Part shown: positions 1 through 54,190 of the stretch, piece by piece
Layout: every line of letters begins with the position of its first letter
How positions within the stretch are numbered: position 1 is the first letter of the stretch
Assembly: GCF_021044625.1 (NCBI RefSeq)
Contig: NZ_CP087999.1
Location: 885,001 to 949,000 of the forward strand
From: Geomonas sp. RF6
GTDB taxonomy: Bacteria > Desulfobacterota > Desulfuromonadia > Geobacterales > Geobacteraceae
Direction: 5' to 3'
DNA: 64,000 nt
Program-made: the position numbers and the translations under genes
The notes under the pieces: model-generated
Told to the model about the DNA's origin: nothing
What the model saw: the letters and a program-made list of their open reading frames with translations, nothing else
Database searches by the model: none

Positions 1-40
1 TAAGGGCCGCCGCGGAGTCGATGGAAGATGACGAATCCAC
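1..40 (-). CDS. Probable start of the next chemotaxis gene (partial)
   Basis: A GTG overlaps the cheA stop codon (bases 40-38, inside TAGTG) and opens a frame that runs off the left edge, reading M-D-S-S-S-S-I-D-S-A-A-A-L. This stop/start overlap matches the other junctions of the operon (STAS/cheY and cheY/cheA both overlap). A cheW- or cheR-type gene would be usual here, but only 13 codons are visible, so the product cannot be named. Confidence 0.4.
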   Translation of the reverse strand, partial: MDSSSSIDSAAAL

Positions 41-2124: not shown

Positions 2125-2486
2125 CCCAGCACCTTCTTTACCACGGCCATGAGCTGCTCAGGCTTGAAGGGCTTCACGATCCAGCCGGTCGCGCCGGCGG
2201 CCTTCCCTTCCTGCTTCCTGGAGTCCTGGCTTTCCGTGGTCAGCATGACGATGGGGATGAACTTGCAGCTCGGCAGGGCACGCGCCCCCTTGATGAGCCC
2301 GATCCCGTCCAGGTTCGGCATGTTGAGGTCGGTGATGAGCATGTCGACCTTCGTGGAGGAGAGCTTCTGCAGGGCGTCTTTTCCGTCCACCGCTTCCACC
2401 ACCTCGTAGCCGCCCTGCTTCAGGGTAAAGGTCACCATCTGCCGCACACTTGCCGAGTCGTCGGCCGTCATAATTACTTTTGCCAT
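2121..2486 (-). CDS. cheY: CheY-type single-domain response regulator
   Basis: A receiver domain alone (121 aa), with the acidic pair DD near residue 9, the phosphoacceptor Asp in LITDLNMP (~residue 54), a Thr in MLTTES and the conserved Lys in VKPF. It is expected to take phosphate from the adjacent CheA and act on a motor or another effector. I chose the ATG at 2486 rather than a GTG two codons upstream because a GGAGG lies nine bases before the ATG but only three before the GTG. Its start overlaps the stop of the STAS gene and its stop overlaps the cheA start, so the three genes are one tightly coupled unit. Confidence 0.95.
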   Translation of the reverse strand: MAKVIMTADDSASVRQMVTFTLKQGGYEVVEAVDGKDALQKLSSTKVDMLITDLNMPNLDGIGLIKGARALPSCKFIPIVMLTTESQDSRKQEGKAAGATGWIVKPFKPEQLMAVVKKVLG

Positions 2487-2842
2487 CAGCACTTACCTCC
2501 GGTCCAGATGCAGCTTTTCGCTTCGCGCTGGCACCCCACGTGACATTGGAATCCTGCCTCTTCGACCACTTTAACGTACACCTCGTTCCCCGCGGGGGCG
2601 ACCGTCAGTGACTTCTGCGCCGCGAGCGCGCTCCCGTGCGCCGCGCACAAAAGCTGCAGCGAGGTGAGGTCCATGCCGGTGACCCCGCGCAGATCGACCA
2701 CCACCTCGTCGGCGGCGCCGAGCGCCTCCACGAGGACTTCCTTGAAACGGGCCGCTTCCGCTATCGTCACGGGGCCCTGTACGGTGATTTCCAGCACGCC
2801 CTCCCCTTTTCCGGAGGCGCGCCCTACAGTCATTTCAGCCAT
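2486..2842 (-). CDS. STAS-domain protein with a Cys-rich tail
   Basis: A single STAS domain (118 aa) of the anti-sigma-factor-antagonist type. The loop GMDLTSLQLL holds the Ser that is phosphorylated in SpoIIAA-like proteins. The last ~25 residues contain four Cys (QCHVGCQ, KSCIW, GGKC), which SpoIIAA lacks and which could bind a metal or heme or respond to redox state; that is inference. STAS proteins are known in several chemotaxis operons as a replacement or companion for CheW-type signalling parts, but the partner here is unknown. It lies between the MCP-like gene (14 bp upstream) and cheY. Confidence 0.85.
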   Translation of the reverse strand: MAEMTVGRASGKGEGVLEITVQGPVTIAEAARFKEVLVEALGAADEVVVDLRGVTGMDLTSLQLLCAAHGSALAAQKSLTVAPAGNEVYVKVVEEAGFQCHVGCQREAKSCIWTGGKC

Positions 2843-2856
2843 TTATCTTGTCCTCG

Positions 2857-4620
2857 CTAAAAAAGCTCCACGTTGTCGCCGTATTCGCCATCGCCTTCGG
2901 CCGTTTCCAGACCCGCACCGTCGAAGAGTGCCTGGTGCACCTGGCGCTCGCTGTTCATGGTGTAGCGCCGGGCGATCTCCTCGAAGTCGATGCTCCCCCC
3001 GGTGCCGGGCGCGACCGTGCGCGCCTCCTCTATGACCGCGGAAAGCTCCGCCAGCGCCCCCTCCAGCACCTCGGAGACCTTGCGGTGCACCGTGATCCCC
3101 GCGGTGGTGCGGTCGATGTCCTCGGTGAGCTCGGCGACGGAGGCATCCATCCCGTGCACCGAGCGGTCCAGCGTCTCCTTCACCGACCGGAGCGTGTGCA
3201 GGAGCTCGCCGAAAGTCGATACCATCCCCTGCACCTTCCCCTCCAGATCGCCGGCATCCTCCCCTTGCGCACCGAAGAGGATCTCGGTGGAGCGGGTGAT
3301 CGCCTGCAGCGTGCGGGAGACCTCTCCGGTCTGGTCGATGGCGTCGACGGAGAGCCGCTGGATCGCCTCGGCGAGAACTCCGAGCGCCGCCCCGTCTTCC
3401 CCTGTGTAGGCGGACTTTATCTGGGAGTTGAGGGCGATGAGCTTTATCTCCTCGCCGACCGTCTCGATCTGCCCCACAAACGCCGCGATGTCCCCCACGG
3501 TGTCGGAAACGGAAGCCATGGCGCTGCAGAGGGTACGGTTCGCCTCGAGGCTCTCGGTGAGCGCCGCGGTGATGGTGCCGAGATCCTTCTCCATTTCCTG
3601 GAAAAAGCTCTTTCCCGCCTGGTCGCTGACACCGGAGATCTTCGCGGTCTCCCGCAGGAGGTGCGACTGTTTCTGGGCGATCTCCTGGAGGTTCGCCACA
3701 ATGAGGCGCACCGCCTGGGTCAGCGCACTCTCCGCGTGGCGCAGCTGCGCCGCCTGGAGCTCGCAGACGATCGCGACCTCCTCCGCGCCGGTCTGACGGG
3801 AGGCGCACCCTCCCTGCAGCTCCACCAGCGACTCCTCCACGTGCTCTATCTGCTGGCGCACGATGTCGTGGGTCTGCATCGACATGACGATCTCCCCGAG
3901 GTTCCGGGTCAATTCGTCGCAGGAAGCGGTAACCTCCGTGATCGCCGCACCGCAGCGCTCGCGGATCTCCGAAAGCGCCTCGAGGCTCCCCCTCGTCTTC
4001 GCCAGGAGGCCGATGACGAGATCGTGCTGCCGCTCGCCGGTCTGCACGACGCGTAGGAGTGTCTGCTCTATGATCTTCGCGAGCTCGTCCTTTCGTCCGA
4101 CGATGATCCCCGCCTTCTCGCTCACCTGGACCGAGAGGGTCTCAACGTCGTTTGCCAGGGTGTCGAAGCCCGCGGCGCTGTTACCTAAGCGGGCGCTTTC
4201 GATCTTCGTGGAGATGCCGAGCATTCTCAGCACCTTGTTTATCTTCTTGAATCCCGCCAGCGGGGCGGAAACCTTCTCCAGGAGCCCGAGGATCTCCTTC
4301 AGCGCGGCCGAGTTCCTCCCGGTCTCCTCCTGGGTGCGGCTCACATACTCCGCCATCTCGTCCAGGACTCCCCGGAAGAGCTCTACCGCCCCGGTCACCG
4401 TCTCGCCGGCCCCCTCGCGGACCATCTCCTCGCCCGCAGAGCCGATCCCGGTGCTGCGCATGTAGAAGTCCTGCAGCTTCCCCCCGATCGACAGGAACTC
4501 GTCCTCGGTGGTGGAGGCGACGAGCTTGAGCTCCGCCCCTATCGCCTCGAGCCTCCTGGACCAGGCATCACATAGCCCCGAGAGCTCTTCTTGCGAGGGT
4601 GTTGATATATCGCTTTCCAT
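2857..4620 (-). CDS. Soluble methyl-accepting chemotaxis-like protein
   Basis: First gene of the chemotaxis operon (587 aa). The protein is almost all predicted coiled coil and has no hydrophobic segment long enough for a membrane helix, so it should be cytoplasmic. Two stretches look like degenerate receptor hairpin tips: residues ~128-150 (GISTKIESARLG) and ~393-425 (LIALNSQIKSAY followed by LGVLAEAIQRLS). The second matches the CheA/CheW-binding tip of MCPs loosely (usual form LALNAAIEAARAG). The C-terminus is acidic and ends GDNVELF, not an NWETF-type CheR tether. It is probably the dedicated sensor or scaffold for the CheA encoded downstream. The ligand is not deducible. Confidence 0.8.
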   Translation of the reverse strand: MESDISTPSQEELSGLCDAWSRRLEAIGAELKLVASTTEDEFLSIGGKLQDFYMRSTGIGSAGEEMVREGAGETVTGAVELFRGVLDEMAEYVSRTQEETGRNSAALKEILGLLEKVSAPLAGFKKINKVLRMLGISTKIESARLGNSAAGFDTLANDVETLSVQVSEKAGIIVGRKDELAKIIEQTLLRVVQTGERQHDLVIGLLAKTRGSLEALSEIRERCGAAITEVTASCDELTRNLGEIVMSMQTHDIVRQQIEHVEESLVELQGGCASRQTGAEEVAIVCELQAAQLRHAESALTQAVRLIVANLQEIAQKQSHLLRETAKISGVSDQAGKSFFQEMEKDLGTITAALTESLEANRTLCSAMASVSDTVGDIAAFVGQIETVGEEIKLIALNSQIKSAYTGEDGAALGVLAEAIQRLSVDAIDQTGEVSRTLQAITRSTEILFGAQGEDAGDLEGKVQGMVSTFGELLHTLRSVKETLDRSVHGMDASVAELTEDIDRTTAGITVHRKVSEVLEGALAELSAVIEEARTVAPGTGGSIDFEEIARRYTMNSERQVHQALFDGAGLETAEGDGEYGDNVELF

Positions 4621-4940: not shown

Positions 4941-5417
4941 CTACTTGAAATCTGCGTACTTCGAGATGACGAGGTCTGTCCCCTTCGCGGTCTGCAGATG
5001 GCACTCGTAGCAGTTCTTCACCGGATCAATCCCGGACGGCGCGCCTTCGGCGGTGAATCCTGCAAACTGCCAGCCGCCGGTCTCCTTGAAGCGCTTGTCC
5101 TTTTTCATCAGGACGATCATCTTCTTTTTCCCCTGGGCCGGCTTGCCACCCTCGTCCTTGATCCCGTACTGCACCACCACAAAGGCGCTCCCTTCCGGGT
5201 AGGTGCCGGAGCCGGCCTTGTATGTCGCCATCGCCTTCGGGTTCACGTAGGTGTAGTGGATGCCGTAAAAGAGGGACTTCTTGTCGTTCACGATCTGCTG
5301 GCGGCTCTTCTCCCACTTCTCGTACCCTTTCGGGAGAGCGGCCTTCGGTGCGGCCATGGAAGTAACAGGGGCCAACGCGCACACCCCCAGCACGAGGGCG
5401 AGTAGCATCTTCTTCAT
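4941..5417 (-). CDS. Exported cytochrome P460-family protein
   Basis: A 158-aa protein with a clear signal peptide (KK followed by LLALVLGVCALAPV, cleavage near SMAAP) and one C-terminal heme motif, CYECH. Spacing and fold-like features (GYEKWEK near the mature N-terminus, KRFKETGGWQFAGF before the heme site) match the cytochrome P460 family. Those are periplasmic c-type cytochromes whose heme is cross-linked to a Lys in characterised members. Function in Geobacteraceae is not established; electron transfer or stress-related NO/hydroxylamine chemistry are possibilities only. Two adjacent ATGs compete; the second (5417) lies five bases from AGGAGG, the first only two, so I chose 5417. The gene is monocistronic, with its own terminator. 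Confidence 0.85.
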   Translation of the reverse strand: MKKMLLALVLGVCALAPVTSMAAPKAALPKGYEKWEKSRQQIVNDKKSLFYGIHYTYVNPKAMATYKAGSGTYPEGSAFVVVQYGIKDEGGKPAQGKKKMIVLMKKDKRFKETGGWQFAGFTAEGAPSGIDPVKNCYECHLQTAKGTDLVISKYADFK

Positions 5418-5492
5418 CATTTCCTCCTGTAGAGACGTTGAAAACCGTCTGTAAAAATAGCGCATGTCGCGCCAAAGTCCATTTGCAATACT

Positions 5493-5516
5493 CCCCCGGC
5501 TCGTGCGGCCGGGGAG
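5493..5516 (-). terminator. Hairpin after the DtxR-FeoA gene
   Basis: CCCCCGGC and GCCGGGGAG form a strong GC stem just beyond the stop codon of the repressor gene. No long T-run follows in either direction, so it may be a weak terminator or an mRNA-stabilising hairpin. Confidence 0.4.
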
Positions 5517-5523
5517 GAACCCG

Positions 5524-6168
5524 CTACTTCCTGACGAAGATCTCGCGCGCCATGGCGCTGTCGATGGCGAACTCGGAGTACCCTACCCTGAAGACGTAGG
5601 AGGGGAAGGACTGCACGAGGACGATGCGGTTTCCCGGGAGGACCCCCATCGCCATCAGCTTTTGCATCTTCTTGCTGTCGTCGGTCTGGATATAGGCGAT
5701 GTCGCCTTCCTCGGCGCATTTGAGCTCCGTCAGCGGTACCACACCGAGATCACCCGCCTTGCGCGCCTCTTCACAGCAGGCACCCGGAGGGATCGGCTTG
5801 CCGTGCGGGCAGGTCGTCGGGTGGTTCAGCATGGTGCACACCTTCGTGTCCACCCCCTCGTTCAGGAGGTGCTCGAACTGGCATGCCTTGTCGTCGCCGC
5901 TTTGCCCGTGGATGCCGAAGATATCCATCATCAGCCGCTCCGCGAGGCGGTGGCGCCTGATGGTGGTGCGCCCCTCCTCTCTCCCGGTGCGCGTAAAGAA
6001 GAGGCGGGCGTCCTTCACCTCTATCAGCCCGTTTGTGAGGAGCTCCGCTACACCGTCGTCCTGCGGCTCCAGCTTCAACGTGGAGAGGAGCGCATGTCCG
6101 TGCCCCTCTTCCACCGCCTCGATCCACAAGGACTCCAGAATCTCCTCAGCGTGGTCCGTCAATTTCAT
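5524..6168 (-). CDS. DtxR-family metal-dependent repressor with FeoA-like domain
   Basis: 214 aa. Residues 1-75 form a winged helix (EILESLWIEAVEEG, then LFFTRTGREEGRTTIRRHRLAERLM). The dimerisation/metal domain holds the DtxR hallmark C-x-x-L-x-H-P-x-x-C-P-H-G-x-P-I-P (~112-127). Residues ~140-214 are an SH3-like FeoA domain (GDIAYIQT, GVLPGNRIVLVQ). DtxR/IdeR/MntR proteins bind operators when loaded with Fe(II) or Mn(II). Position last in a feoB operon implies iron-responsive autoregulation of ferrous iron uptake. No separate feoA is seen, so the fused FeoA domain may also act on FeoB; that is speculative. Confidence 0.88.
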   Translation of the reverse strand: MKLTDHAEEILESLWIEAVEEGHGHALLSTLKLEPQDDGVAELLTNGLIEVKDARLFFTRTGREEGRTTIRRHRLAERLMMDIFGIHGQSGDDKACQFEHLLNEGVDTKVCTMLNHPTTCPHGKPIPPGACCEEARKAGDLGVVPLTELKCAEEGDIAYIQTDDSKKMQKLMAMGVLPGNRIVLVQSFPSYVFRVGYSEFAIDSAMAREIFVRK

Positions 6169-6202
6169 ACTATCTCCCGTACCGATACGTCGAGGCCCAG
6201 CC

Positions 6203-6388
6203 TCACTTCGGCGTTCCCCCGCGCCTGAAAAGCTTCTTCACCGTCTTTATCATCTTCGGCTCCGGAGGATTCTCATAGTTGCAGCGCGGGCACTTTATCA
6301 TCTTGCACCCTGAAGACATGGGGCAGCTGCTGCACCCCTGGTTTCCTTCTTCTTCCCTGAATTCGTAGCCGCAAAAACCGCAGCGCAT
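6203..6388 (-). CDS. Small Cys-rich zinc-ribbon protein in the feo operon
   Basis: 61 aa with four Cys pairs or near-pairs: CGFC, CSSC, a lone C in SSGCKM, and CPRC, giving enough ligands for a zinc ribbon or an iron-sulfur site. The C-terminus is basic. It lies between feoB and the DtxR-FeoA repressor on the same strand with short gaps. Small Cys-rich proteins are commonly found next to feoB (FeoC and the FeoB-associated Cys-rich family), but the sequence does not match either convincingly. An accessory role in Fe(II) transport is inferred from context. Confidence 0.7.
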   Translation of the reverse strand: MRCGFCGYEFREEEGNQGCSSCPMSSGCKMIKCPRCNYENPPEPKMIKTVKKLFRRGGTPK

Positions 6389-6449
6389 ATATCCTTCCAG
6401 TTGCCCCCTCCGATCGGGTTTCGAGCCGGAGCAGGGAGCGTTAAGCCTT

Positions 6450-8441
6450 CTACAGTATTCCCGTCGCCAGGAGCACCTGGTTTAAAACCCAGCCGCTGCC
6501 AAAGGCGAAGGTCGAGACAAAGAGCCCGATGGATAAGGAGACCTTCCACCCGCGCTCTTTTTTCATGATCAGAAACTGCGCGACGCACGGGATGAAGAGG
6601 GTCAGCGTCACCGCGGCGACCGTGAGCTGCCGCGGATTGAGAATCCCCTTCGTCTGCAGGTCGTAGAGCCCCGCCGCACCGTAGTCGCGCCGGAAGAACC
6701 CGAAGATGAAGGAAACTGCGGTCTCCTTCGGGAGCCCCAGCGCCCCCATCACCGGTGTCATGGCGTCGACCATCTTCTCGAAGAAGTGCGTGATCTTCCC
6801 GAGCCACAGCAGCACCGAGGCGACGATGAAGAGGGGGAGGATCTCCATGAAGTACCACTGCATGCGGCTCACCGTCTTCGTGAGGACGTTGGACCACTGC
6901 GGGAGCCTCATGGGGGGGAGCTCCATGTAGAACATCGGCGTCTCCCCGGGGAGAACCCGTGCGGCCAGGAGCCCCACCAGGAGGAAGATCAGGAGGAGGC
7001 ACCCGAGCCACACGGCGAGCGCCCCCGGCGCCTTCGAGAGGAGCGCCAGGATGACCCCGAGCTGCGCCGAGCAGGGGATGGCCAGCGCCAGGAGGAGGGT
7101 GGCGATGACCCGCTCACGCACAGTCTCCAGCGTGCGCGTCACCATCGTGGCCATGGTGTCGCAGCCAAAGCCGAGGACCATCGGTATGACGGCGCGCCCG
7201 GTGAGACCGACCTTCTTGAAGATGCGGTCGACTAAAAGCGCGAGGCGCGGGAAGTAGCCGCTATCCTCCAGCATGGAGAAGAAGAGGAAGAAGGTGGCCA
7301 CGATCGGCAGGATGATCCCTACCGCATAGCGCATGCCGAGGGTGATGACCCCGTACTCCCCGACGAAAAGCTCCCGGATGATTTCCCAAGGGATCAGGTT
7401 GTTCACCACCCCGGTGATCCACGGGTTGAACCACTCCTCGAATACCTTCCCTTCCAGGAGATCGACCAGTGTTCCCGCCCCGAACTCGCCGACGAACTTG
7501 TAAAGACCGTAGTAAAGGACAACTATGAGGAGCGGCACTCCGGTAATCGGCCGAAGGGTCAGGCGCGACAGCCTCTCCGACCAGGTTACCGGCCGGACCG
7601 CCGGCACCCGGAAGGTGCCGTCGAGGACCTTCTGCACGATCGCCTTCCGCTCCAGGGAAAGGTCGAGATGGAAAGAGTCCCGGCGCTTGAAGCGCTTCTC
7701 GCGCACGCACGCCTCCAGCGTGCCGTAGCGGTCCCCCTCCAACTTTGCCACCAGCTCGGCGACTTCCGTGTCCCCCTGCAGGAGAAGGAGCGCCATCGCC
7801 TTCCGCGAGAGGATGTACTCACCCCTGAGGAGCTCGGTGATCTCCGCGAGGTCTTCCTCCAGCTCCGGGGCGTAGCGCGGCACGGGGGCCGTCACCGGAT
7901 GCACGGAGGCGATCGCCGCGCGGATCTCGGAGAGGCCCACCTTCTTCGCGGTCGCCGCCCCGATCACCGGGATGCCGAGGCGCCGGGAGAGCTCGGGGAT
8001 GTCGATCTCCAGTCCGAGGCGCGCCGCCTCGTCCATGATGTTCACCACCAGCACGAGGGGGAGTTCCGCCTCGATGAGCTGCAGGGTCATGGGGAGCATG
8101 CGCTCCAGGTTGCGCGCGTCGAGGACGTGGATCACCAGGTGCGGGCGCTCGTTCAGGAGGATCTCGCGGGCGACCCGCTCCTCCTCCGTGATCGGCAGGA
8201 TGGAGTACATCCCCGGTGTGTCGATGACCTCGTACTGGACCCCGTCTATGACCGCGTTGCCGCGCGCCACCTCCACCGAGGTGCCGGGGTAGTTCGACAC
8301 GGTGACATAGGCGCCGGTGAGGGCGTTAAAGAGAACGCTCTTCCCGACGTTGGGGTTGCCGACCAGCGCTACCTTCCTGGCACCGCTGGCGGCGACGCTA
8401 ACAGTCTCGTGACAGGATGCTTTCTTCTTGAATATGGACAT
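6450..8441 (-). CDS. feoB: Ferrous iron transporter FeoB
   Basis: 663 aa inner-membrane Fe(II) transporter. The N-terminal G domain shows GNPNVGKS (G1, ~28-35), a TVSNYPGTS switch I, DTPGMYS (G3) and NIMDEA (G4). Next is a helical spacer, then a membrane domain with two Gate motifs typical of the family: the region around GFGCDTMATM with the conserved Cys, and the later segment FFRRDYGAAGLYDL. It starts a leftward operon feoB - zinc ribbon - dtxR. The 146 bp upstream contain an imperfect AT-rich palindrome that could be a Fur site. The usual separate feoA is missing. Confidence 0.96.
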   Translation of the reverse strand: MSIFKKKASCHETVSVAASGARKVALVGNPNVGKSVLFNALTGAYVTVSNYPGTSVEVARGNAVIDGVQYEVIDTPGMYSILPITEEERVAREILLNERPHLVIHVLDARNLERMLPMTLQLIEAELPLVLVVNIMDEAARLGLEIDIPELSRRLGIPVIGAATAKKVGLSEIRAAIASVHPVTAPVPRYAPELEEDLAEITELLRGEYILSRKAMALLLLQGDTEVAELVAKLEGDRYGTLEACVREKRFKRRDSFHLDLSLERKAIVQKVLDGTFRVPAVRPVTWSERLSRLTLRPITGVPLLIVVLYYGLYKFVGEFGAGTLVDLLEGKVFEEWFNPWITGVVNNLIPWEIIRELFVGEYGVITLGMRYAVGIILPIVATFFLFFSMLEDSGYFPRLALLVDRIFKKVGLTGRAVIPMVLGFGCDTMATMVTRTLETVRERVIATLLLALAIPCSAQLGVILALLSKAPGALAVWLGCLLLIFLLVGLLAARVLPGETPMFYMELPPMRLPQWSNVLTKTVSRMQWYFMEILPLFIVASVLLWLGKITHFFEKMVDAMTPVMGALGLPKETAVSFIFGFFRRDYGAAGLYDLQTKGILNPRQLTVAAVTLTLFIPCVAQFLIMKKERGWKVSLSIGLFVSTFAFGSGWVLNQVLLATGIL

Positions 8442-8470
8442 CTTGGGGGAGACCCTTCTTGCCTGGCGGC

Positions 8471-8497
8471 AAAGTCAATTGGAATTCAATTTCAAGG
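8471..8497. promoter_or_regulatory. Possible Fur-type operator upstream of feoB
   Basis: An AT-rich imperfect palindrome centred on GAATTC (AATTGGAATTCAATTTCA) lies about 35 bp upstream of the feoB start, between feoB and fur. A GAAAATGAAA-like stretch occurs near 9085, upstream of fur. Geobacter Fur boxes are AT-rich inverted repeats of this sort, but the match here is by eye only. Confidence 0.3.
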
Positions 8498-8587
8498 TGG
8501 AGTGACGATCGGTGCCGTCGCGGACGCAACGGGAGGGGGAGGGACCCTTGCGGGCGCGCCGGCTTTCCCCCGGGAGAGGAGCGCCGC

Positions 8588-9019
8588 CTACTTGCGGCAG
8601 GCGCCGCACAGACCGTACAGCTCGAGCCTGTGCCTCTCGATGAGGAATCCCCGGTTCGCTGCGACCTCTGCCTGCAGCTTCTCGATTCCCTCGTTTTCGA
8701 ACTCTTCGATGGAGCCGCACCTGGTGCAGACGAGGTGATCGTGATGCTCCCCTTCCCCCACGTGCTCGTACCGGGTCTGGCCGTCGCCAAACTGCATCTC
8801 CCGGGCGATCCCCGACTCGGCAAAGAGCTTCAGGGTGCGGTAGACGGTGGCGTAGCCGATGTTCGGGTGCTTCGCGCGCAGCTTCAGGTAGAGCTCCTCG
8901 ATGCTCATGTGGCGGTCGGAGGAGAGGAAGCAGTCGAGGATCAGGTCCCGCTGCCGGGTGGACTTCAGGCCCCGCTGAGCGATGAAGTCGGCGAATGCTT
9001 TTTTCTTTGCCCGTTTCAT
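8588..9019 (-). CDS. fur: Fur-family ferric uptake regulator
   Basis: 143 aa. The winged-helix N-terminus contains LKSTRQRDLILDCFL and YATVYRTLKLFAESGI. Metal-site residues include HVGEGEHHDH (the H-x-H cluster) and two CXXC motifs (CTRC ~residue 99; CGAC at the C-terminal end), the usual structural zinc site of Fur/PerR. It probably represses iron uptake genes in the presence of Fe(II), including feoB directly downstream. PerR or Zur identity cannot be excluded by reading alone. The upstream region (9020-9100) is AT-rich, as expected for an autoregulated fur promoter. Confidence 0.9.
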   Translation of the reverse strand: MKRAKKKAFADFIAQRGLKSTRQRDLILDCFLSSDRHMSIEELYLKLRAKHPNIGYATVYRTLKLFAESGIAREMQFGDGQTRYEHVGEGEHHDHLVCTRCGSIEEFENEGIEKLQAEVAANRGFLIERHRLELYGLCGACRK

Positions 9020-28712: not shown

Positions 28713-28821
28713 GGGGGATGGTGTTTGTTCTTCACAAAATAGTTACGGCGCGTTCGTCGAACGCGCCGTGACTGCTTTCCTGTAACCGTGGGGCGTGCTG
28801 CCCCGGTCTTTCTCCAGAATC

Positions 28822-31014
28822 CTACCCGGCGGTCTTGAAGGCGCCGAGCTCCTTCTTGAGAATCTCTGTCTGCCTGAAGAGCCGGGAGGCCGCGTCGTCC
28901 AGCGTGCGGCTCGCCTCCAGGTTCCCGTCGGTCGCCTGCTGGATGTCCTCGACGGAGGCGACGATCTGCTCGGAGCCGCGCCCCTGCTCGTCGCACGCCC
29001 TCTTTATGTGCCGGATCATCTCGGTGATGCTCTCGGTGGACTTCGCCATCAGCGTCCCCACCTTGTTCTGCTCGCGCGTCGAGGAGAGGACCTGGGAGGT
29101 GAGGACCTTCATGTTCTCCACCGCCCCCATGATGAGCTCGCTACCCATCCCCTGCTCCCGCGTCGCCTTGGCGATCTGGGTCACCATCTCCGAGACCTGC
29201 TCCATCGCCTCCCGGATCATCTGGCTCCCCTTCGCCTGCTCGACCGTGGTGCGGGCAATCTCCCCTACCTGCGCAGTCGCCTCGCTGACGCCGATCACGA
29301 TCTTGGAGAGCGCCTCACCCGACTTGTGACTGAGGAGCTCGCCGTCGGCGATCGCCGCCTGCGCCTGCTCGATCGCCTCCACAGCCCTGCGCGTCTCCTC
29401 CTGGACCCCCCTGATGACGAGAGCGATCTCGCGGGTGGAGGAAGAGGTGCGCTCGGAGAGATCCTTTATCTCGTCCGCCACGACGGCGAATCCCTTTCCG
29501 TGCTCTCCTGCCTGGGCGGCTATGATCGCCGCGTTCAGCGCAAGGAGGTTCGTCTGCTCCGCCACCTCGTCGATGACGGAGAGGATGTCGCCGATGTCGG
29601 CGGCACGATCGGAGAGGGTGCTGATGACTTCACTGGTGATGCGGGAGGAGCGCTTGATCTCCTGCATCCCCTGGATCACCGCCTGTACCGCCTCTTTCCC
29701 CGTCTCGGCGTCGACCCGCACCGTGTTGGAGATCGCCGCCGTTTCGTTCGCGTTTCTCTCGACCTGCTTGATCGAGCTGTCCATCTGCATGACAGAGGAG
29801 GCGGTAGCGGTGGAGACCTCCATGAGGCTCACCACGCCATTTCCGACCTGGCGGATGGAGGCTGCCATCTCCCCGATGGAGGAGCTCACCTCACCGACCG
29901 ACTGGGAGAGATCCTCCATGTTCTGCACGACCTCCTCGACGGAGGAGGCCATCTCCAGCACCGACGAGGCGCTCTCCGCCGCGGAGATGGAGAGGGAGTC
30001 GACGCTGCTTCCGACCCCGCGCACGGAGGCGTTTATCTCCACGATGGCGGCGGAGGTGCGCGACACGCTTTCCGCCTGGGTCTTCGCCGACTCCACCACG
30101 CTCTGGGAGGCCTTCGCCATGACGTCGGAGATGACGGCGAGCTCGGAGGAGGAGCGGGAGACGTTCCCGATCATCCCGGAGAGCTTCCCGACCATCTCGT
30201 TGAAGTCGCCGCCGAGCTTTCCGAGCTCGTCGGCCGAGTCGGTGGCGACCGTGGCGGAGAGATCCCCTTCCGCCCCGCGGTTTACCGCGGCGACCATGAC
30301 GTTGATGCGGCTCACGATGTTGCGGGTAATAAGGGCGCCCATGGCGACGGCGAGAAGAATCGCACCGATGATGACGGCGACAAAGGTGAAGCCGGCCGTG
30401 CGCTGGATCTGCGTCACGTGGGCGCCGGCATCGGTCATGCGGTTGCCGACCTCCACGAGGATGTCGTCCAGCTCACCCTTTGATTTGTCGCTCGCCATGG
30501 TGATGTCGTCGTTGGCGAGCTGGTGCAGCTTCGGATCGGAGAGGGAAGCCTGCCCGCCCTGGGCCAGCAGCTTCTCCTTTTGTGCGATAAGCTCGTCCGC
30601 GACCCTCTCGAACTCCCCCCAGCTTGCCTGGAAGTCCCTGGTGCGCTTCTCGATGACGCTCCCCTTCACCGCGGGCTTCAGGTGCATCTTTGCGTTGCCG
30701 TCCAGCAGGGTCTGCGCCTGGCTCACCAGGAGGTCCCGCTTCATCCGGTAGTCGTCGACATACTCCTCGAACTTGTCCTTCTCGCTGCGCACCAGCGCAG
30801 CCTGCATGAGGCTCACGTGACAGTACTTCTGAGTCACCGCCATCAAAAGGACCTGCTTTTGCTGCTTCGAAAGCTGTTCGAGAATGTCCTGGATCTGCCC
30901 CCCCACCCTTTTCATGGTGAGGGCACCGAAGGCGCCGGTGATGGCGACGAGGAGCGCCATCACCATGAAGGAGCCTATCAGGCGGGAGCCGATCTTCACA
31001 TCTTTGAGTGCCAT
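28822..31014 (-). CDS. Membrane methyl-accepting chemotaxis protein
   Basis: 730 aa. TM1 at ~14-34, a helical periplasmic ligand domain of the 4HB type (~35-195), TM2 at ~200-222 ([18 protein letters not shown]), HAMP (~223-280) and a long signalling coiled coil. The hairpin tip is [20 protein letters not shown] followed by [13 protein letters not shown]. No CXXCH is present, so it is not itself a heme receptor. The upstream cytochrome gene ends at the very next base (31015), and the porin gene precedes that. The three are probably one transcript, linking the receptor to a redox process; that link is inference. Confidence 0.93.
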
Positions 31015-31374
31015 TTAGTGTTCCGCTTCAACCAGAAGGTAGTTCATGAGGTCGACGGTTGCCTTGATCTCGGGCTTGGACATGTTGGAGTCCGGCTTCC
31101 GGAGCATCTTCACGCCGTACGCCTTCGTGGCGTTACGGTCGAAGGGCTGCCCGGAGATCGGGGCGATGCCGGTCTGGATCGCCACGATGGTGCGCTCCAG
31201 CGTGTGGCACTTTACGCACCGCACCTTCATGATGTCGTAGTTCGCCTTCATCGCCGGTGGGAAGGCGGAGGGGTCGAGGCGCATGGCATCGCCTTTACCG
31301 ACAACCTTCAGTCCTGCATGGGCGGCGCTGACGGAAAGGGCCAGAACAAGGAGCGTAAGGAGAGTCTTCTTCAT
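31015..31374 (-). CDS. Small monoheme c-type cytochrome
   Basis: 119 aa with a signal peptide (MKKTLLTLLVLALSVSAAHA) and one heme motif, CVKCH (~residue 62), followed by HTLERTIVAIQTG. A distal Met (several in the C-terminal part) may be the second heme ligand. Probably periplasmic electron carrier. Start at 31374: GGAGG eight bases upstream. It sits between a heme-tagged barrel gene and a chemoreceptor gene; no intergenic space to the latter. Confidence 0.88.
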   Translation of the reverse strand: MKKTLLTLLVLALSVSAAHAGLKVVGKGDAMRLDPSAFPPAMKANYDIMKVRCVKCHTLERTIVAIQTGIAPISGQPFDRNATKAYGVKMLRKPDSNMSKPEIKATVDLMNYLLVEAEH

Positions 31375-31466
31375 GTAGATATCCTCCACGGATGTTGGGT
31401 TATTGCATGCCGGCAGTCCGGTGACAAACGTATCGGCGAATCCTCTTTTCCCTTTAAGGGAAAGCC

Positions 31467-32750
31467 TTAGAAGCTGAAAGCGAGCGAAGCCAGAGTCGTC
31501 CTGTTGATCGCCTGCGCCCCGTCTTCGTAGATGTACTCGAGCGACAGCTTCGTGTTCTGCAGCGGCGTGTACGCGACCGCCGGAATATAGCGGCGGGTTG
31601 CTCCCTGCAGGTTGTAGAAGTAGTCGTAGCGCATGAGGGCAACCACGTCGACCGGCGCGCCGAACATATACTCACCTTCGACCGTGACGGCATGGCTGTG
31701 CAGCGCGCTCCCACCCGCGGAGAGGTCGGGATTGGTGTCCCTGCCGAGGACGCCGCTTCCCTTCAGGTGCAGCCTCTTGTACAGGAGGTCGATCTCCGCG
31801 CCAGCGCGGTAGAAGTTGTTTCGCTCCTGCGCGACACCAAAGGCGTCGATGACGCCGTTATGACCGGAGTAGCCGAAAGCGCCGACGGTGATCCCGAGGT
31901 AGTCCCAGACGGTCGCTTCCTTTTCCAGGTCGACCTCCGGCTCGTGACCGCTGAAGTCGGTGCCGCCGAACCTCCCGGAGATGTGCCCGTAGTAGTCCTT
32001 GCTGTTTTGCCCTTTCCGGTTCGCCACCCCAGCGGAAACGAGGACGCGGTCCCCTATGAGGGAGTTCACCTCCAGGGCGTCCTGGGGAGTGTCGACGCTC
32101 CACTGGGAGCCCCCCTGCCCCTGGGTGTAGGTCGTGGAAGCGAAGGAGGGGACGGTGATGACGCGGTTCGACTTTTTCCACAGGGAGAGCTTCGGTTCCA
32201 TGCGGCCGATCCGCACGTTCACCGGCGTCTTCAATGCATGGCGCCAGATCGCGAAGAGCTCGTTTATGTCCGGCGAGGCGTTGTTCGGGTTGTTGTGCGC
32301 GCCGGTCTGCAGGTCCTGCGCGTAGAGGTTGTAGGTGAGGTAGAAGGCGGCGACGTCGCGGAAGGCGCTACTTGCCTGGAGCCTGATGGAGCGGCTGGAG
32401 AGGTCGAGCTCGTCCACGGCGCGGCTGTTGTAGGCTGCGTCGATCGTCGCGGTGAAGGAGACCGGGAGCATCTCCGGGATCCCGGAAAGCCACAGCCCCT
32501 CGGTGCGCTGCGCCTCACCCTTCCCCGCCGGTGCGGCATGGGCGCCGCTTGGCCAGACGTAGCTGTTTCGCAGGTACGCCTCGCCGAATTCATTGAGTTC
32601 CGGATAGATCGTATGGCATGTGGAGCACTCGGTCTTGTGCTGGCGGGCATAGGCCGGGATAGCGTGCGACGGGGACGGAGCGACGAGCGGCAAAAGGGCA
32701 GCGGCGGTGAGGGACAGTGCTGCCAGAGCGAGACGGCTTTTAGAAAACAC
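31467..32750 (-). CDS. Outer-membrane beta-barrel with N-terminal single-heme motif
   Basis: 427 aa. Signal peptide (LALAALSLTAAALLPLVAPS, cleaved near SHA), then IPAYARQHKTECSTCHTIYP with ELNEFGEAYLRNSY; the CSTCH motif should bind one heme at the mature N-terminus. The rest is alternating polar/hydrophobic strands ending in LASLAFSF with a terminal Phe, as outer-membrane barrels do. An N-terminal heme-barrel arrangement is widespread in cytochrome-rich bacteria but poorly characterised. A GTG at 32750 is preceded by AGGAGG at seven bases. It probably starts the operon barrel-cytochrome-MCP; a decaheme lipoprotein gene lies divergently upstream. Confidence 0.82.
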   Translation of the reverse strand: MFSKSRLALAALSLTAAALLPLVAPSPSHAIPAYARQHKTECSTCHTIYPELNEFGEAYLRNSYVWPSGAHAAPAGKGEAQRTEGLWLSGIPEMLPVSFTATIDAAYNSRAVDELDLSSRSIRLQASSAFRDVAAFYLTYNLYAQDLQTGAHNNPNNASPDINELFAIWRHALKTPVNVRIGRMEPKLSLWKKSNRVITVPSFASTTYTQGQGGSQWSVDTPQDALEVNSLIGDRVLVSAGVANRKGQNSKDYYGHISGRFGGTDFSGHEPEVDLEKEATVWDYLGITVGAFGYSGHNGVIDAFGVAQERNNFYRAGAEIDLLYKRLHLKGSGVLGRDTNPDLSAGGSALHSHAVTVEGEYMFGAPVDVVALMRYDYFYNLQGATRRYIPAVAYTPLQNTKLSLEYIYEDGAQAINRTTLASLAFSF

Positions 32751-33014
32751 TAACAATCCTCCTGCGAATGCATTGAACCTGAAGCTGAATTAGCGAAAAC
32801 TCATCACTTTATGGATGATGCAGCACAGAAGGTACTCAAGATACCACATCGGGGGACGATTATTACAGTATTGCCGACGTGAAGTCAACTTAACAAAGTA
32901 TACGTGCCGCACATTTGTTGGGAAAAATACGGTGAGATATTGTTTACTTTTTCCTACATTTTTGCCCGGGGAAATGCTATAAGGCTACCAGCAAAATTTG
33001 GAGGACTGTACAGT

Positions 33015-34841
33015 ATGCAGCTTAGAAGTCTCGCCACTCTCGCGATATCTGCCACCCTGCTTCTCTCCGGCTGCGGCGGGGGTGGGACTACGACGACAGC
33101 GGTCTCCAAGGAGGCGCTTTCCCGGGAGTGCATCCGCTGCCACGAAGATGCAGTCTCTCCCGGCACGAAAGTCTCCCTGATAAGCGAGTGGCAGGGATCG
33201 AGCCATGCTCTGGCCAACGGCGCAGGGTGTGCGGACTGCCACGAGCCCGCCATAGGACACCCGAACGTCTGCAGCACCTGCCACGGCGGCGGTGGATCCC
33301 CCACCGGGTACGAGGTGACCCGCAATCCGGACACCGACGGGAAGTGCCTGAAGTGCCACGGAGTAAGTCACTCCGAAGACGTCCTGATGAAAAACGCCCC
33401 GCAGCACTTCGGAAGCGTCTCCGGAACCGGAGTAGTGGGCGCCTCCTACGTCAATGTGGCGAACCAGGGAAAATGCCGCTCCTGCCACAACCCGCACCAG
33501 AACACCCTGACGCCGCAGCACCGCGCCTTCGCCCTTTCCGGCCACGGCAAGACCGACGCGGAAGCGTTCAACCACTACGACTTCAAGAGCAGGACCGACG
33601 GCTGCAATCGTTGCCACACCAGCACAGGATTCAAGAAGTACGTCACCGACTTCGCCACTCCGACTCCCGCCTTCGGCGTCGGAGATACGACCCGCGGGGT
33701 ACTCGGCTGCGACACCTGCCATGAAAGCTACAACTACAAAAGCAGCCTGCGCCAGCTCGCTGCAGTGTCGGCTCCGTACAAGGGAGTCGCCGCGGCGCGC
33801 TTCCCCGATGTGGGTGAGAGTAACCTCTGCCTCCCCTGCCACGCGGGGCTGGAGAGCGGTGCTACCATCAACGCGCTCGCGGACGGGGCTTTCGGCAATG
33901 CGGGTTTCGAAAACTCGCACTACCTGGCGGCTGCGGGGCTCATGTACATGAAGATCGGCTTCACGAACTTCACCTCCGCCAGCGCGCCATTCGGGAGCTC
34001 GACCTACGGGCAGTCCCTCTCGCCCGACAGCGACTCGACCCCGGGCGGGATGTTGAAGGCCACCACCAGTGCGCACAGGAACCTCGGCACCCCCCTCATC
34101 AACGGGGACAGGCATAACCTGTCCTTCTTCGTCCCCGGCGTGCTGGACAAGAACGGTCCGTGCGTCACGTGCCACCTGAATGGAAGCGGAGTCGCGAAAC
34201 GCGAGGCATCTGGGCACTCCATGAAGATCGACGCCAACGCCTACCGCCAGGTGTGCATCAACTGCCACACCTCGGAAAACACGGTCCCCCTCGCGGCGGA
34301 CGGCTCGGACTTCGCGAGGATCTTCCTCGAGCCGCAGGCCGAAGCGTACGAGGAAGCGCTACGCCTCATGGAGCACCTTCTTCTCACGAAGTACGAGATC
34401 AGCTTCAACAAGGCCGTCTACCCCTATTTCTACGACGAGAAGATCCTGCCGGTGAACGGCAAGAAGCAGGCTGTGAGGGACTGGACGCGCGGCGGGACGG
34501 TGAACGGCAAGAAGATGATGGGCGCCTGCTTCAACTTCAATCTCCTGAAGCGCGAGCCTGCCGCCTACGCCCATGCCCGCTCCTATTCACGCAGGCTCAT
34601 CTATGATAGCATCGACTTTCTGGACGACGGCATCATGAACGGCTCCACCGGAGCGACCGCGCTCGCCTCCGGCCTCACCATGGGGGACCATGTGACGCCG
34701 GTGTACGTGAAGGATGATTCCGCCTACAATACAGCCGGCGGGACGATCAGCACCATTTACGGCAACACCTCCGAGGCGATGCTCTACCTCATCGGGTGGA
34801 GCCGCAGCACCGGGAAGTGGAACGCCGTCGAGCGTCCCTAG
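33015..34841 (+). CDS. Decaheme c-type cytochrome lipoprotein
   Basis: 608 aa. A lipoprotein signal (LAISATLLLSGC, Cys ~20) is followed by a Gly/Thr linker and ten CXXCH motifs in order: CIRCH, CADCH, CSTCH, CLKCH, CRSCH, CNRCH, CDTCH, CLPCH, CVTCH, CINCH. The hemes are spread over about the first 420 residues; the last ~150 have none. Membrane anchoring and heme number resemble outer-surface or periplasm-facing cytochromes of Geobacter electron conduits, but I do not recognise a named Omc. The ATG at 33015 has a GGAGG about ten bases upstream. A divergent promoter region (32751-33014) separates it from the heme-barrel gene. Confidence 0.92.
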   Translation: MQLRSLATLAISATLLLSGCGGGGTTTTAVSKEALSRECIRCHEDAVSPGTKVSLISEWQGSSHALANGAGCADCHEPAIGHPNVCSTCHGGGGSPTGYEVTRNPDTDGKCLKCHGVSHSEDVLMKNAPQHFGSVSGTGVVGASYVNVANQGKCRSCHNPHQNTLTPQHRAFALSGHGKTDAEAFNHYDFKSRTDGCNRCHTSTGFKKYVTDFATPTPAFGVGDTTRGVLGCDTCHESYNYKSSLRQLAAVSAPYKGVAAARFPDVGESNLCLPCHAGLESGATINALADGAFGNAGFENSHYLAAAGLMYMKIGFTNFTSASAPFGSSTYGQSLSPDSDSTPGGMLKATTSAHRNLGTPLINGDRHNLSFFVPGVLDKNGPCVTCHLNGSGVAKREASGHSMKIDANAYRQVCINCHTSENTVPLAADGSDFARIFLEPQAEAYEEALRLMEHLLLTKYEISFNKAVYPYFYDEKILPVNGKKQAVRDWTRGGTVNGKKMMGACFNFNLLKREPAAYAHARSYSRRLIYDSIDFLDDGIMNGSTGATALASGLTMGDHVTPVYVKDDSAYNTAGGTISTIYGNTSEAMLYLIGWSRSTGKWNAVERP

Positions 34842-53552: not shown

Positions 53553-54190
53553 ATCGGGTAGGAGGCGAGGTTACCCTCGCCGTCCTCCCACACCACCGTG
53601 CGTACGGTTCCGTACACGGCGACGGCGGTTCATATAGCCCTCTGGAAACGGTTGAGTTGGTCCATCAGGCTTACGAGACCCAGCTCATCAAAGTAGGTTT
53701 TCCGAACAGCAAGGTTCATCTGCGCGGCCCCTGAGTTCCACCAGGGGCCGTGTCCGTTTCCGGCGGACTCGCTGTCTTCTTTGATAATCCCAACTTCAGC
53801 AGGTTCTTCTCTCGGGCGCGGGGCCGCTTCCACTGCAGCAACATTATGCAGCGCAGCTTCCGCCGTATCCAGCCGTCCAGCTCTTCGAAGACTCCCCTTA
53901 CCTCGGCATGTCGGAAGTAGTTCATCCGTCCCCGCAGCTTAGGTTGCAGTTCTTCGATTGTGGCCGCAATACTCTTTCCCCGCCCCCTCCGACTGGACAT
54001 TCGGATTCGACTTTTCACCCTCTCCGCCGCTTTTCCCCCAGGTGTGCGGTGACGGGTCATGTCGAAGCTCAGGAACGTCCTGTTCCACGGTCGGTCAACC
54101 GCGCTCTTGCTGCGGTTTACCTACAGTTTGAGTTCACCCTCAAGGAAGGCAGTGCCGAGGCCATCACACGTTCGCCACTCTTTCTATGAA
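53553..54190 (-). mobile_element. 3' remnant of a group II intron
   Basis: Read leftward, the region ends with the typical intron terminus: a TGTACGGAACCGTACGCACG-type domain V/VI stretch (about 53590-53625), then GTGTGGGAGGACGGCGAGGG and CCTCGCCTCCTACCCGAT ending at 53553. The upstream part encodes the C-terminal end of the maturase. The intron's 5' half and the reverse transcriptase domain are missing, so the element cannot splice or move. Confidence 0.75.
53630..54187 (-). pseudogene. Broken group II intron maturase (C-terminal part)
   Basis: Three registers together give the end of a reverse transcriptase/maturase: FLEGELKL, then an in-frame TAG, then VNRSKSAVDRPWNRTFLSFD, IEELQPKLRGRMNYFRHAEV, and LDGWIRRKLRCIMLLQWKRP. 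Near 53785 a frameshift moves the product to EDSESAGNGHGPWWNSGAAQ and the end LGLVSLMDQLNRFQRAI. These match the thumb/X domain and C-terminal end of intron-encoded proteins. One stop and two frame changes make it a pseudogene. Confidence 0.78.

Follow-up and report, generated by a model that had tools for sequence, protein, structure and literature searches.

A Cyc2-like cytochrome-porin encoded with a monoheme cytochrome, a ten-heme lipoprotein and a chemoreceptor: a candidate redox locus of Geomonas and its relatives

In the porin-cytochrome (Pcc) conduits of Geobacter, such as OmbB-OmaB-OmcB, the periplasmic partners carry 5-14 hemes, the porin has 18-22 predicted strands, and an outer-membrane multiheme c-type cytochrome is present in most clusters (PMC4245776). 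Cyc2 proteins, which are fused cytochrome-porins acting as Fe(II) oxidases, were described by Keffer et al. as having a CXXCH motif, an upstream AXPXFAR[Q/K][T/Y] motif, a downstream PXL and a 16-strand OprO/OprP-like barrel; the screen for them required at least 365 aa and a blastp E-value of at most 1e-5 to a Cyc2 cluster representative (PMC8406198). On the sensory side, a 2021 review of chemotaxis in Geobacter deals with receptors that have their hemes built in: the heme is part of the receptor's PAS-like domain in GSU0582 and GSU0935 and of its periplasmic domain in DcrA (PMC8396549). The EsnABCD system of G. sulfurreducens, which is based on methyl-accepting chemotaxis proteins (MCP), is needed for electrode colonisation, and its receptor EsnA belongs to class 40H, with a GAF domain and no putative periplasmic domain (PMC5585712). 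In Shewanella, accumulation at insoluble acceptors by congregation and electrokinesis has been connected both with mtrBC/omcA and with an MCP that has a Cache domain (PMC5789149). The locus described here lies at 28822-34841 of a 64,000-nucleotide stretch of Geomonas sp. RF6 (positions 885,001 to 949,000 of NZ_CP087999.1, called the window below), in a genome of 5.26 Mb in one contig. It encodes a heme-tagged outer-membrane barrel, a monoheme cytochrome (MONO) and a chemoreceptor on the minus strand and a ten-heme lipoprotein (DECA) on the plus strand. The reading put forward, which is held with about even confidence, is that the four genes would form a trans-envelope redox module, usually coupled to the chemoreceptor in genomes of the Geobacteraceae type (family f1), where the receptor would serve in sensing.

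An earlier note on this stretch had described a barrel, a monoheme cytochrome and a chemoreceptor in one apparent operon, with a ten-heme lipoprotein divergent to them. All four genes were confirmed. The absence of a gap between the cytochrome and the receptor was also borne out, the stop codon of MONO abutting the ATG of the MCP gene (0 nt). The barrel gene is followed by MONO after 92 nt, and a single barrel-MONO-MCP operon is plausible.

The barrel gene (31467-32756, minus strand) encodes a protein of 429 aa from a TTG start, with one CXXCH after a stretch that by inspection resembles a signal peptide. The motif, CSTCH at residues 44-48 (32613-32627, minus strand), is located within AIPAYARQHKTECSTCHTIYPEL; Cys44, Cys47 and His48 were invariant in the 29-row alignment A1, and the consensus of the heme segment in the family was AIPAFSRQHKTECSTCHTIYPELNEYGEAF. 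The Pfam match was to Porin_O_P (E 2.2e-5). The family profile, when compared with solved structures, matched OprO (4rjw and 4rjx; E 0.0012 and 0.0023) and OprP (2o4v; E 0.33), together with one marginal unrelated chain. The AlphaFold2 model had 16 strands and a mean pLDDT of 66.6, the C-terminal half being more confident and the heme segment (residues 25-94) falling below 50; with this model, Foldseek returned many general porins, 2o4v and 4rjw among them. The predicted fold thus agrees with the 16-strand OprO/OprP-like barrel of Cyc2, as do the length and the single CXXCH with the published screen. A PXL just downstream of the CXXCH was present in the window (YPEL) and in 31 of 31 relatives. 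The strict upstream motif, screened as PXFAR[Q/K][T/Y], was found in none of the 31 relatives and not in the window, where the corresponding residues are PAYARQH (0 of 32 overall). The profile aligned with two strict-motif proteins from plasmids of Caballeronia and Methylocystis over the heme segment only (35-49 bits), and the barrel part gave no significant match to these two proteins. The best tblastn match of the barrel among plasmids, E 0.02, was likewise to a strict-motif protein. Because PXL and CXXCH are kept and the heme segment is homologous, with the strict motif missed, the protein is classed on its sequence as a Cyc2-like fused cytochrome-porin and not as Cyc2 by the published screen. 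Its heme is probably covalently bound. A more distant heme-tagged barrel was seen in a different setting (L226, genome G138), near an eight-CXXCH gene and a gene that by inspection is Rieske-like.

MONO (31015-31374, minus strand) is a protein of 119 aa from its ATG, the listed open reading frame beginning at a GTG at 31389. Its only CXXCH is the CVKCH at residues 53-57 (31204-31218, minus strand). In an alignment of 30 rows the relatives were 45-82% identical to the window's protein, and CXXCH, Met90 and Met98 were invariant; the two methionines are the candidate distal heme ligands. In a group of distant relatives (L217-L222) the heme motif was widened to CX4CH or CX6CH and Met98 was replaced by Ile with Met90 retained. 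Met90 is favoured as the axial ligand, since it stays where Met98 becomes Ile. The protein would be periplasmic and would carry its heme covalently. In L217-L222 the barrel keeps its CXXCH although the heme motif of MONO is widened. A profile built from the 30 sequences gave nothing beyond marginal matches to cytochromes c of the mitochondrial type (E 0.89-1), and at that sensitivity no solved monoheme cytochrome could be named as kin of MONO. A lone copy of MONO was observed in L100 (9210-11663) between a gene with a rhodanese domain and an oxidoreductase gene with Pyr_redox and rhodanese domains (Pfam), and the same setting was recognised by inspection in L102.

DECA (33015-34841, plus strand) has 608 aa from its ATG, ten CXXCH motifs, Pfam matches to Cytochrome_C7 and Cytochrom_c3_2, and a lipobox, LSGC, with Cys20. 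Its start was moved from 32904 to 33015 because a GGAGG precedes the ATG at 33015 and the lipobox follows from it; the longer frame is taken as a start-codon artefact. The protein is probably located at the outer membrane. Among 58 related genomes, the window's own included, the DECA query matched 48, and 21 matching stretches were detected in the window's genome. As the family has paralogues, the presence of DECA alone is uninformative and only its adjacency was counted. The matches of DECA to solved cytochromes were marginal, to nitrite reductases/cytochrome c-552 and PpcA-type cytochromes (E 0.017-0.088), and no kinship was assigned from them.

The chemoreceptor (28822-31014, minus strand; 730 aa) consists of a sensor between two membrane helices, a HAMP domain and a long signalling domain. 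The Pfam matches to HAMP (PF00672, 46.7 bits) and MCPsignal (PF00015, 153.4 bits) identify it as an MCP. The sensor, residues 33-206 (30397-30918, minus strand), is predicted to be a periplasmic four-helix bundle. Its structural neighbours include the ligand sensors Vc1313, MCP2201 (citrate), McpN (nitrate) and NarQ, as well as TorS and LytSN, the latter from an entry entitled as the XylFII-LytSN complex. Both LytSN and TorS sense through a partner protein. Since helical bundles match easily, these matches are a statement on the fold only. No CXXCH was found in the MCP sequence; if the receptor responds to redox state, a partner would therefore have to supply the signal, and MONO is the simplest candidate. 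Cys65 of the sensor was conserved in 27 of 28 aligned orthologues, the window's included. A universal redox switch at Cys65 was rejected, as the residue is Ser in L101 and, by inspection, in L223, and the second Cys of many relatives is missing in the window. The signalling domain has 217 aa after the tip motif, compared with 129-167 in 25 of 29 other rows; the exceptions were L200 (219, with the same tip), L186 (98), L191 (266) and one that was cut. These lengths come from 30 of the 46 MCP matches and are in keeping with a 40+24H-like domain. Receptors of class 40+24H occur at one to eight per genome in Geobacteraceae (PMC3543383). Six H-kinase_dim matches were obtained, and the cognate CheA of the receptor was not singled out among them. 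A chemotaxis cluster lies at 40-4620 of the window, with a CheA (H-kinase_dim match) and, by inspection, CheY-like, short STAS-like and 587-aa MCP-like proteins. Elsewhere in the window's genome, a PBP_like_2 homologue stands beside another MCP (L230, 6155-7075).

The earlier note had named a lack of co-conservation as a result that would refute the module. The genes turned out to be strongly co-conserved. The barrel was matched in 35 of the 58 related genomes, in three of them weakly at the heme end (G016, G045, G053), leaving 32; MONO was found in 42, including all of these 32, and both MONO and a full-length barrel were missing from the seven genomes of genus g11. When the genome collection was scanned with a sequence pattern, 84 matches and 57 named barrel loci were obtained, a set that is not exhaustive, as at least G009 and G020 were left out. 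The titles of the 57 were Geobacter, Geomonas, Geotalea, Oryzomonas, Citrifermentans and relatives, Geobacteraceae, Desulfuromonadales/Desulfuromonadaceae and unclassified Deltaproteobacteria. The highest barrel identities (60-62%) belonged to Geomonas species, in a ranking that may omit very near records. MONO was located downstream of the barrel on the same strand in 54 of the 57 loci, the other three ending at contig edges. A multiheme (DECA) match adjoined the barrel in 54 as well, divergently in 26 and co-directionally in 28; the three loci without it comprise two contig edges and one barrel with 1.2 kb upstream on a contig of 3.6 kb.

When counted with an MCP signalling-domain profile within 5 kb of the barrel, MCPs were present in 24 of the 57 named loci, 23 with a divergent DECA and one with DECA beyond the contig edge. 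This corresponds to 23 of the 26 divergent loci; of the three without an MCP, L131 ends at the barrel, L143 and L166 do not. In a sample of 395 genomes of the phylum, the barrel profile matched 37, 12 of them above 200 bits (the cut-off for a strong barrel chosen in this analysis), and MONO matched 15. MONO was present in 12 of the 12 strong-barrel genomes, in 3 of the 383 others and in none of the 25 weak-barrel genomes (Fisher p 1.8e-20, shared ancestry ignored). At most 4 (barrel) or 11 (MONO) candidates per genome were scored, so that the absences are upper bounds. A second phylum search around another centre covered apparently the same genomes and added none.

MONO is also linked to the MCP where no barrel adjoins it. 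This was observed in L095, L096, L097, L099, L101 and L104, five of the six genomes being without a full-length barrel, and the gaps between the two genes were 5 (L099), 47 (L101) and 80 nt (L096). An MCP signalling domain was found within 4 kb in 37 of the 55 MONO loci examined, which had been chosen for holding a barrel or MONO and do not include the MONO copies in G006, G037 and G055. Six of the 37 had a four-helix MCP with no barrel or DECA in reach (L094 is at a contig end, with the barrel on another contig). Because MONO pairs with an MCP also where the barrel is missing, it looks like the hub of the set. A PBP_like_2 gene was inserted between MONO and the MCP in genus g9, L095 and L104 (loci L036, L037, L088, L094, L095 and L104) and stood after MONO in L106; it occurred in 3 of the 57 named loci and not at the window locus.

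Outside the order, the receptor next to MONO was of another type in several loci. In L223 and L224, which belong to a different family within the class, an MCP divergent to barrel-MONO still carried the four-helix sensor (profile scores 174-178 bits), and the L223 sensor was 31% identical to the window's (E 2e-32). In L217 and L218 one MCP precedes the barrel and a second lies 17 nt after MONO, the second one of L217 being in two frames. L221 has the barrel, DECA, MONO and an MCP on one strand, with 4 nt between the last two; in L222 MONO-MCP is divergent to DECA-barrel (gap of -4 nt by the first start codon found); the L251 stretch opens with part of MONO, after which comes an MCP (-17 nt, determined likewise). 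The gap from MONO to the replaced receptor is thus about -17 to 17 nt. In their N-terminal parts, the receptors that come after MONO at these five loci were 41-98% identical to each other. Compared with the sensor of the window, none of the five reached significance (best E 0.42), and the four-helix profile missed them too. The dCache_1 matches in them were weak and below the Pfam cut-off (E 5.9e-6 in L222, 5.3e-4 in L251 and 0.0055 in L221); none was reported for L218, the only other receptor of the five that the scan covered. In L219 an MCP precedes the barrel, and there is none after MONO within 2.3 kb. Judged by their sequences, MONO is paired with two unrelated receptor types, one four-helix and one weakly Cache-like, which argues for a functional link rather than an inherited neighbourhood.

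In the proposed mechanism, DECA at the outer membrane would give electrons to, or take them from, something external, the Cyc2-like barrel would carry one heme at the same membrane, and the periplasmic MONO would take up or supply those electrons. The heme-free periplasmic domain of the MCP would most likely read the redox state, or the presence, of MONO, and the signal would then reach the Che pathway and shift motility or matrix behaviour in favour of extracellular electron acceptors that the cell can use. What the sequences establish is the parts and their repeated association; the cellular locations, the order and direction of the electron flow, the contact between MONO and the receptor, and the behavioural output are inferred. 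A conduit with an optional sensing branch is preferred to a sensor only, because the trio of barrel, MONO and DECA presumably works alone in the many loci without a receptor.

Several observations weigh against this module. An MCP is absent from 33 of the 57 named loci, of which 8 end within 3 kb downstream of the barrel. No MCP signalling domain was found within 5 kb of the barrel in any of the 28 loci with a co-directional DECA; in 18 of these loci the sequence reaches 5 kb or more to either side, in the other 10 it does not. The receptor, which the earlier note had counted as a member of the set, is therefore retained as an optional one. In seven of the 55 MONO loci, the barrel, DECA and the MCP were all missing from the neighbourhood, and one of the seven lies less than 1 kb from a contig end; L099, where the receptor is cut by the contig end, was not counted among them. 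DECA was not seen in L217 and L218. The PBP_like_2 protein encoded between MONO and the MCP could be the real ligand carrier. In a distance (mirror-tree) comparison of 26 loci, the correlations after correction by accD/folC were 0.10 for barrel-MONO, 0.11 for barrel-MCP and 0.46 for MONO-MCP; that of MCP-trpA was higher, 0.66. As the MCP-trpA residual exceeds the MONO-MCP one, no co-evolution beyond shared history is shown.

In a second reading, which is possible rather than probable, the trio is a respiratory conduit for extracellular electron transfer and the MCP is merely co-expressed, sensing with its own domain a small ligand such as nitrate and having no contact with the cytochrome. The co-directional trio without an MCP within 5 kb in 28 of the 57 named loci, the presence of McpN, NarQ and MCP2201 among the structural neighbours of the sensor, and the unrelated sensors at the same place, which fit shared regulation and not a shared binding surface, are all as expected from it. 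The six loci with MONO-MCP and no adjacent barrel would be unexpected if MONO were purely respiratory. The sensing part can also be taken further: DECA, the barrel and MONO might be a dedicated outer-membrane redox antenna for chemotaxis which relays the oxidation state of solid acceptors to a heme-free receptor, so that electrons and not a ligand are the signal, and which was assembled at least twice with unrelated receptors. This stronger form of the proposal is doubtful.

An inward electron flow, with the barrel oxidising Fe(II) in the manner of Cyc2 or taking electrons from a cathode or a partner, MONO as the carrier and the MCP steering to donors, would suit the 16-strand OprO/OprP-like barrel reported for Cyc2 and the homology of the heme segment to the strict-motif proteins on the Caballeronia and Methylocystis plasmids. 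It is made improbable by the absence of the strict motif in 32 of 32 proteins and by the carriers, which are mostly Geobacter-type lineages. Such lineages are known for outward electron transfer. The multiheme gene, a near-constant companion here (54 of 57), is moreover not part of the Cyc2 description given in PMC8406198. A locus for nutrient or oxyanion sensing, in which the barrel would be a porin for anions whose heme is structural and would act with PBP_like_2 and the MCP, is very improbable: the matches to the phosphate porins OprO/OprP, the PBP_like_2 gene between MONO and the MCP or after MONO, and the PBP-MCP pair elsewhere in the same genome speak for it, whereas the PBP gene is in only 3 of the 57 named loci and not at the window locus, and the multiheme lipoprotein and two heme motifs would be left unexplained. 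A gene order inherited without functional meaning is hardly credible. The MCP-trpA-accD-folC order is indeed conserved in many of the same genomes, and the distance residuals are not above those of background genes. Against this, MONO-MCP occurs in L101 with no trpA in the stretch examined, MONO is also paired with an unrelated receptor, and membership of the set is kept where orientation and gene order vary. Chance or housekeeping synteny was disfavoured on the same grounds, MONO being found with an unrelated receptor and in altered orders. The preferred conduit with an optional sensing branch is retained.

A promoter-like site with an extended -10 (32859-32888, minus strand; consensus match only, 10/12) lies upstream of the barrel, and a terminator-like hairpin of 11 pairs with a T-rich tail (28745-28769, minus strand; consensus match only) between the MCP and trpA. 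Such sites were found 4 times with 1.3 expected (promoter-like) and 8 times with 5.7 expected (terminator-like), so that single sites are weak evidence. In the downstream flank, Pfam identifies trpA, a LysE-type gene and a histidine kinase, and accD and folC were recognised among them by inspection; queH sits beyond DECA. In L033 and in L130, which is Geotalea toluenoxydans JCM 15764, the MCP, trpA and multiheme genes are each split into overlapping frames, which we would guess to be draft-assembly frameshifts. At 4941-9019 of the window a small secreted protein with one CXXCH stands ahead of genes that by inspection are DtxR/FeoA-like, FeoB-like and Fur-like, which suggests iron homeostasis. 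An Rfam match to a group II intron was obtained at 53553-53624 (minus strand), with 40.8 bits compared with a gathering score of 40.

In the literature, covered as titles and abstract openings with most subscription journals outside the scope, no description of this locus was found. The word cytochrome is absent from the main text of Tran et al. on Geobacter chemotaxis (PMC2577667), and the passages on porin and MCP genes of G. bemidjiensis in PMC2996986 hold no such locus. Cyc2 and chemotaxis proteins are both named in PMC10734462, the latter in one place, a table in the section on c-type cytochromes. How metal-respiring bacteria find solid electron acceptors has been described as unclear even in Shewanella (PMC5789149). 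A likely outer-membrane redox path and a chemoreceptor in one conserved locus make this question testable gene by gene, and the set may allow the cells to sense which extracellular acceptors are open to their respiration. The locus also brings a fused barrel of the Cyc2-like type, known from work on Fe(II) oxidisers, into a Geobacter-type setting, and it defines a candidate conduit type that the Pcc criteria would miss.

In comparison with the Pcc (PMC4245776) and Ext (PMC5585712) conduits as described there, the locus likewise encodes together a barrel, a periplasmic c-type cytochrome and a multiheme lipoprotein, and DECA, with ten CXXCH and a lipobox, corresponds to the outer-membrane multiheme c-type cytochrome of most Pcc clusters, its location at that membrane being probable. 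In contrast, the periplasmic partner has one heme motif and not 5-14, and the barrel has a heme motif of its own and 16 predicted strands instead of 18-22, by a strand predictor different from that of the published work; membership in Pcc was rejected on these two counts. The earlier note had likened the set to an outer-membrane electron conduit without recognising a named one. The second part agrees with the failed Pcc comparison, and is to be narrowed, as the heme segment of the barrel belongs to the known Cyc2-like superfamily.

With Cyc2 the barrel shares a short N-terminal segment with one CXXCH and a downstream PXL, followed by the predicted 16-strand OprO/OprP-like barrel. It differs in lacking the strict AXPXFAR[Q/K][T/Y] motif (0 of 32) and in standing nearly always beside multiheme and MONO genes in the named loci. 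The heme-c chemoreceptors GSU0582/GSU0935 and DcrA are similar in that a receptor is proposed to read the periplasmic redox potential (PMC8396549). The MCP described here has no heme motif, which excludes it from that group, and has a predicted four-helix sensor instead. It is not of the EsnA type either, having a predicted periplasmic sensor and no GAF match in the Pfam scan; unlike EsnA, the receptor has a signalling domain in keeping with class 40+24H and is encoded with cytochromes. The closest functional parallel is found in Shewanella, where outer-membrane electron transfer genes and an MCP are both implicated. As given in PMC5789149, the MCP (SO_2240) and the conduit (SO_1776-1779) of Shewanella carry separate locus tags, whereas in the Geomonas window the corresponding genes are in one locus.

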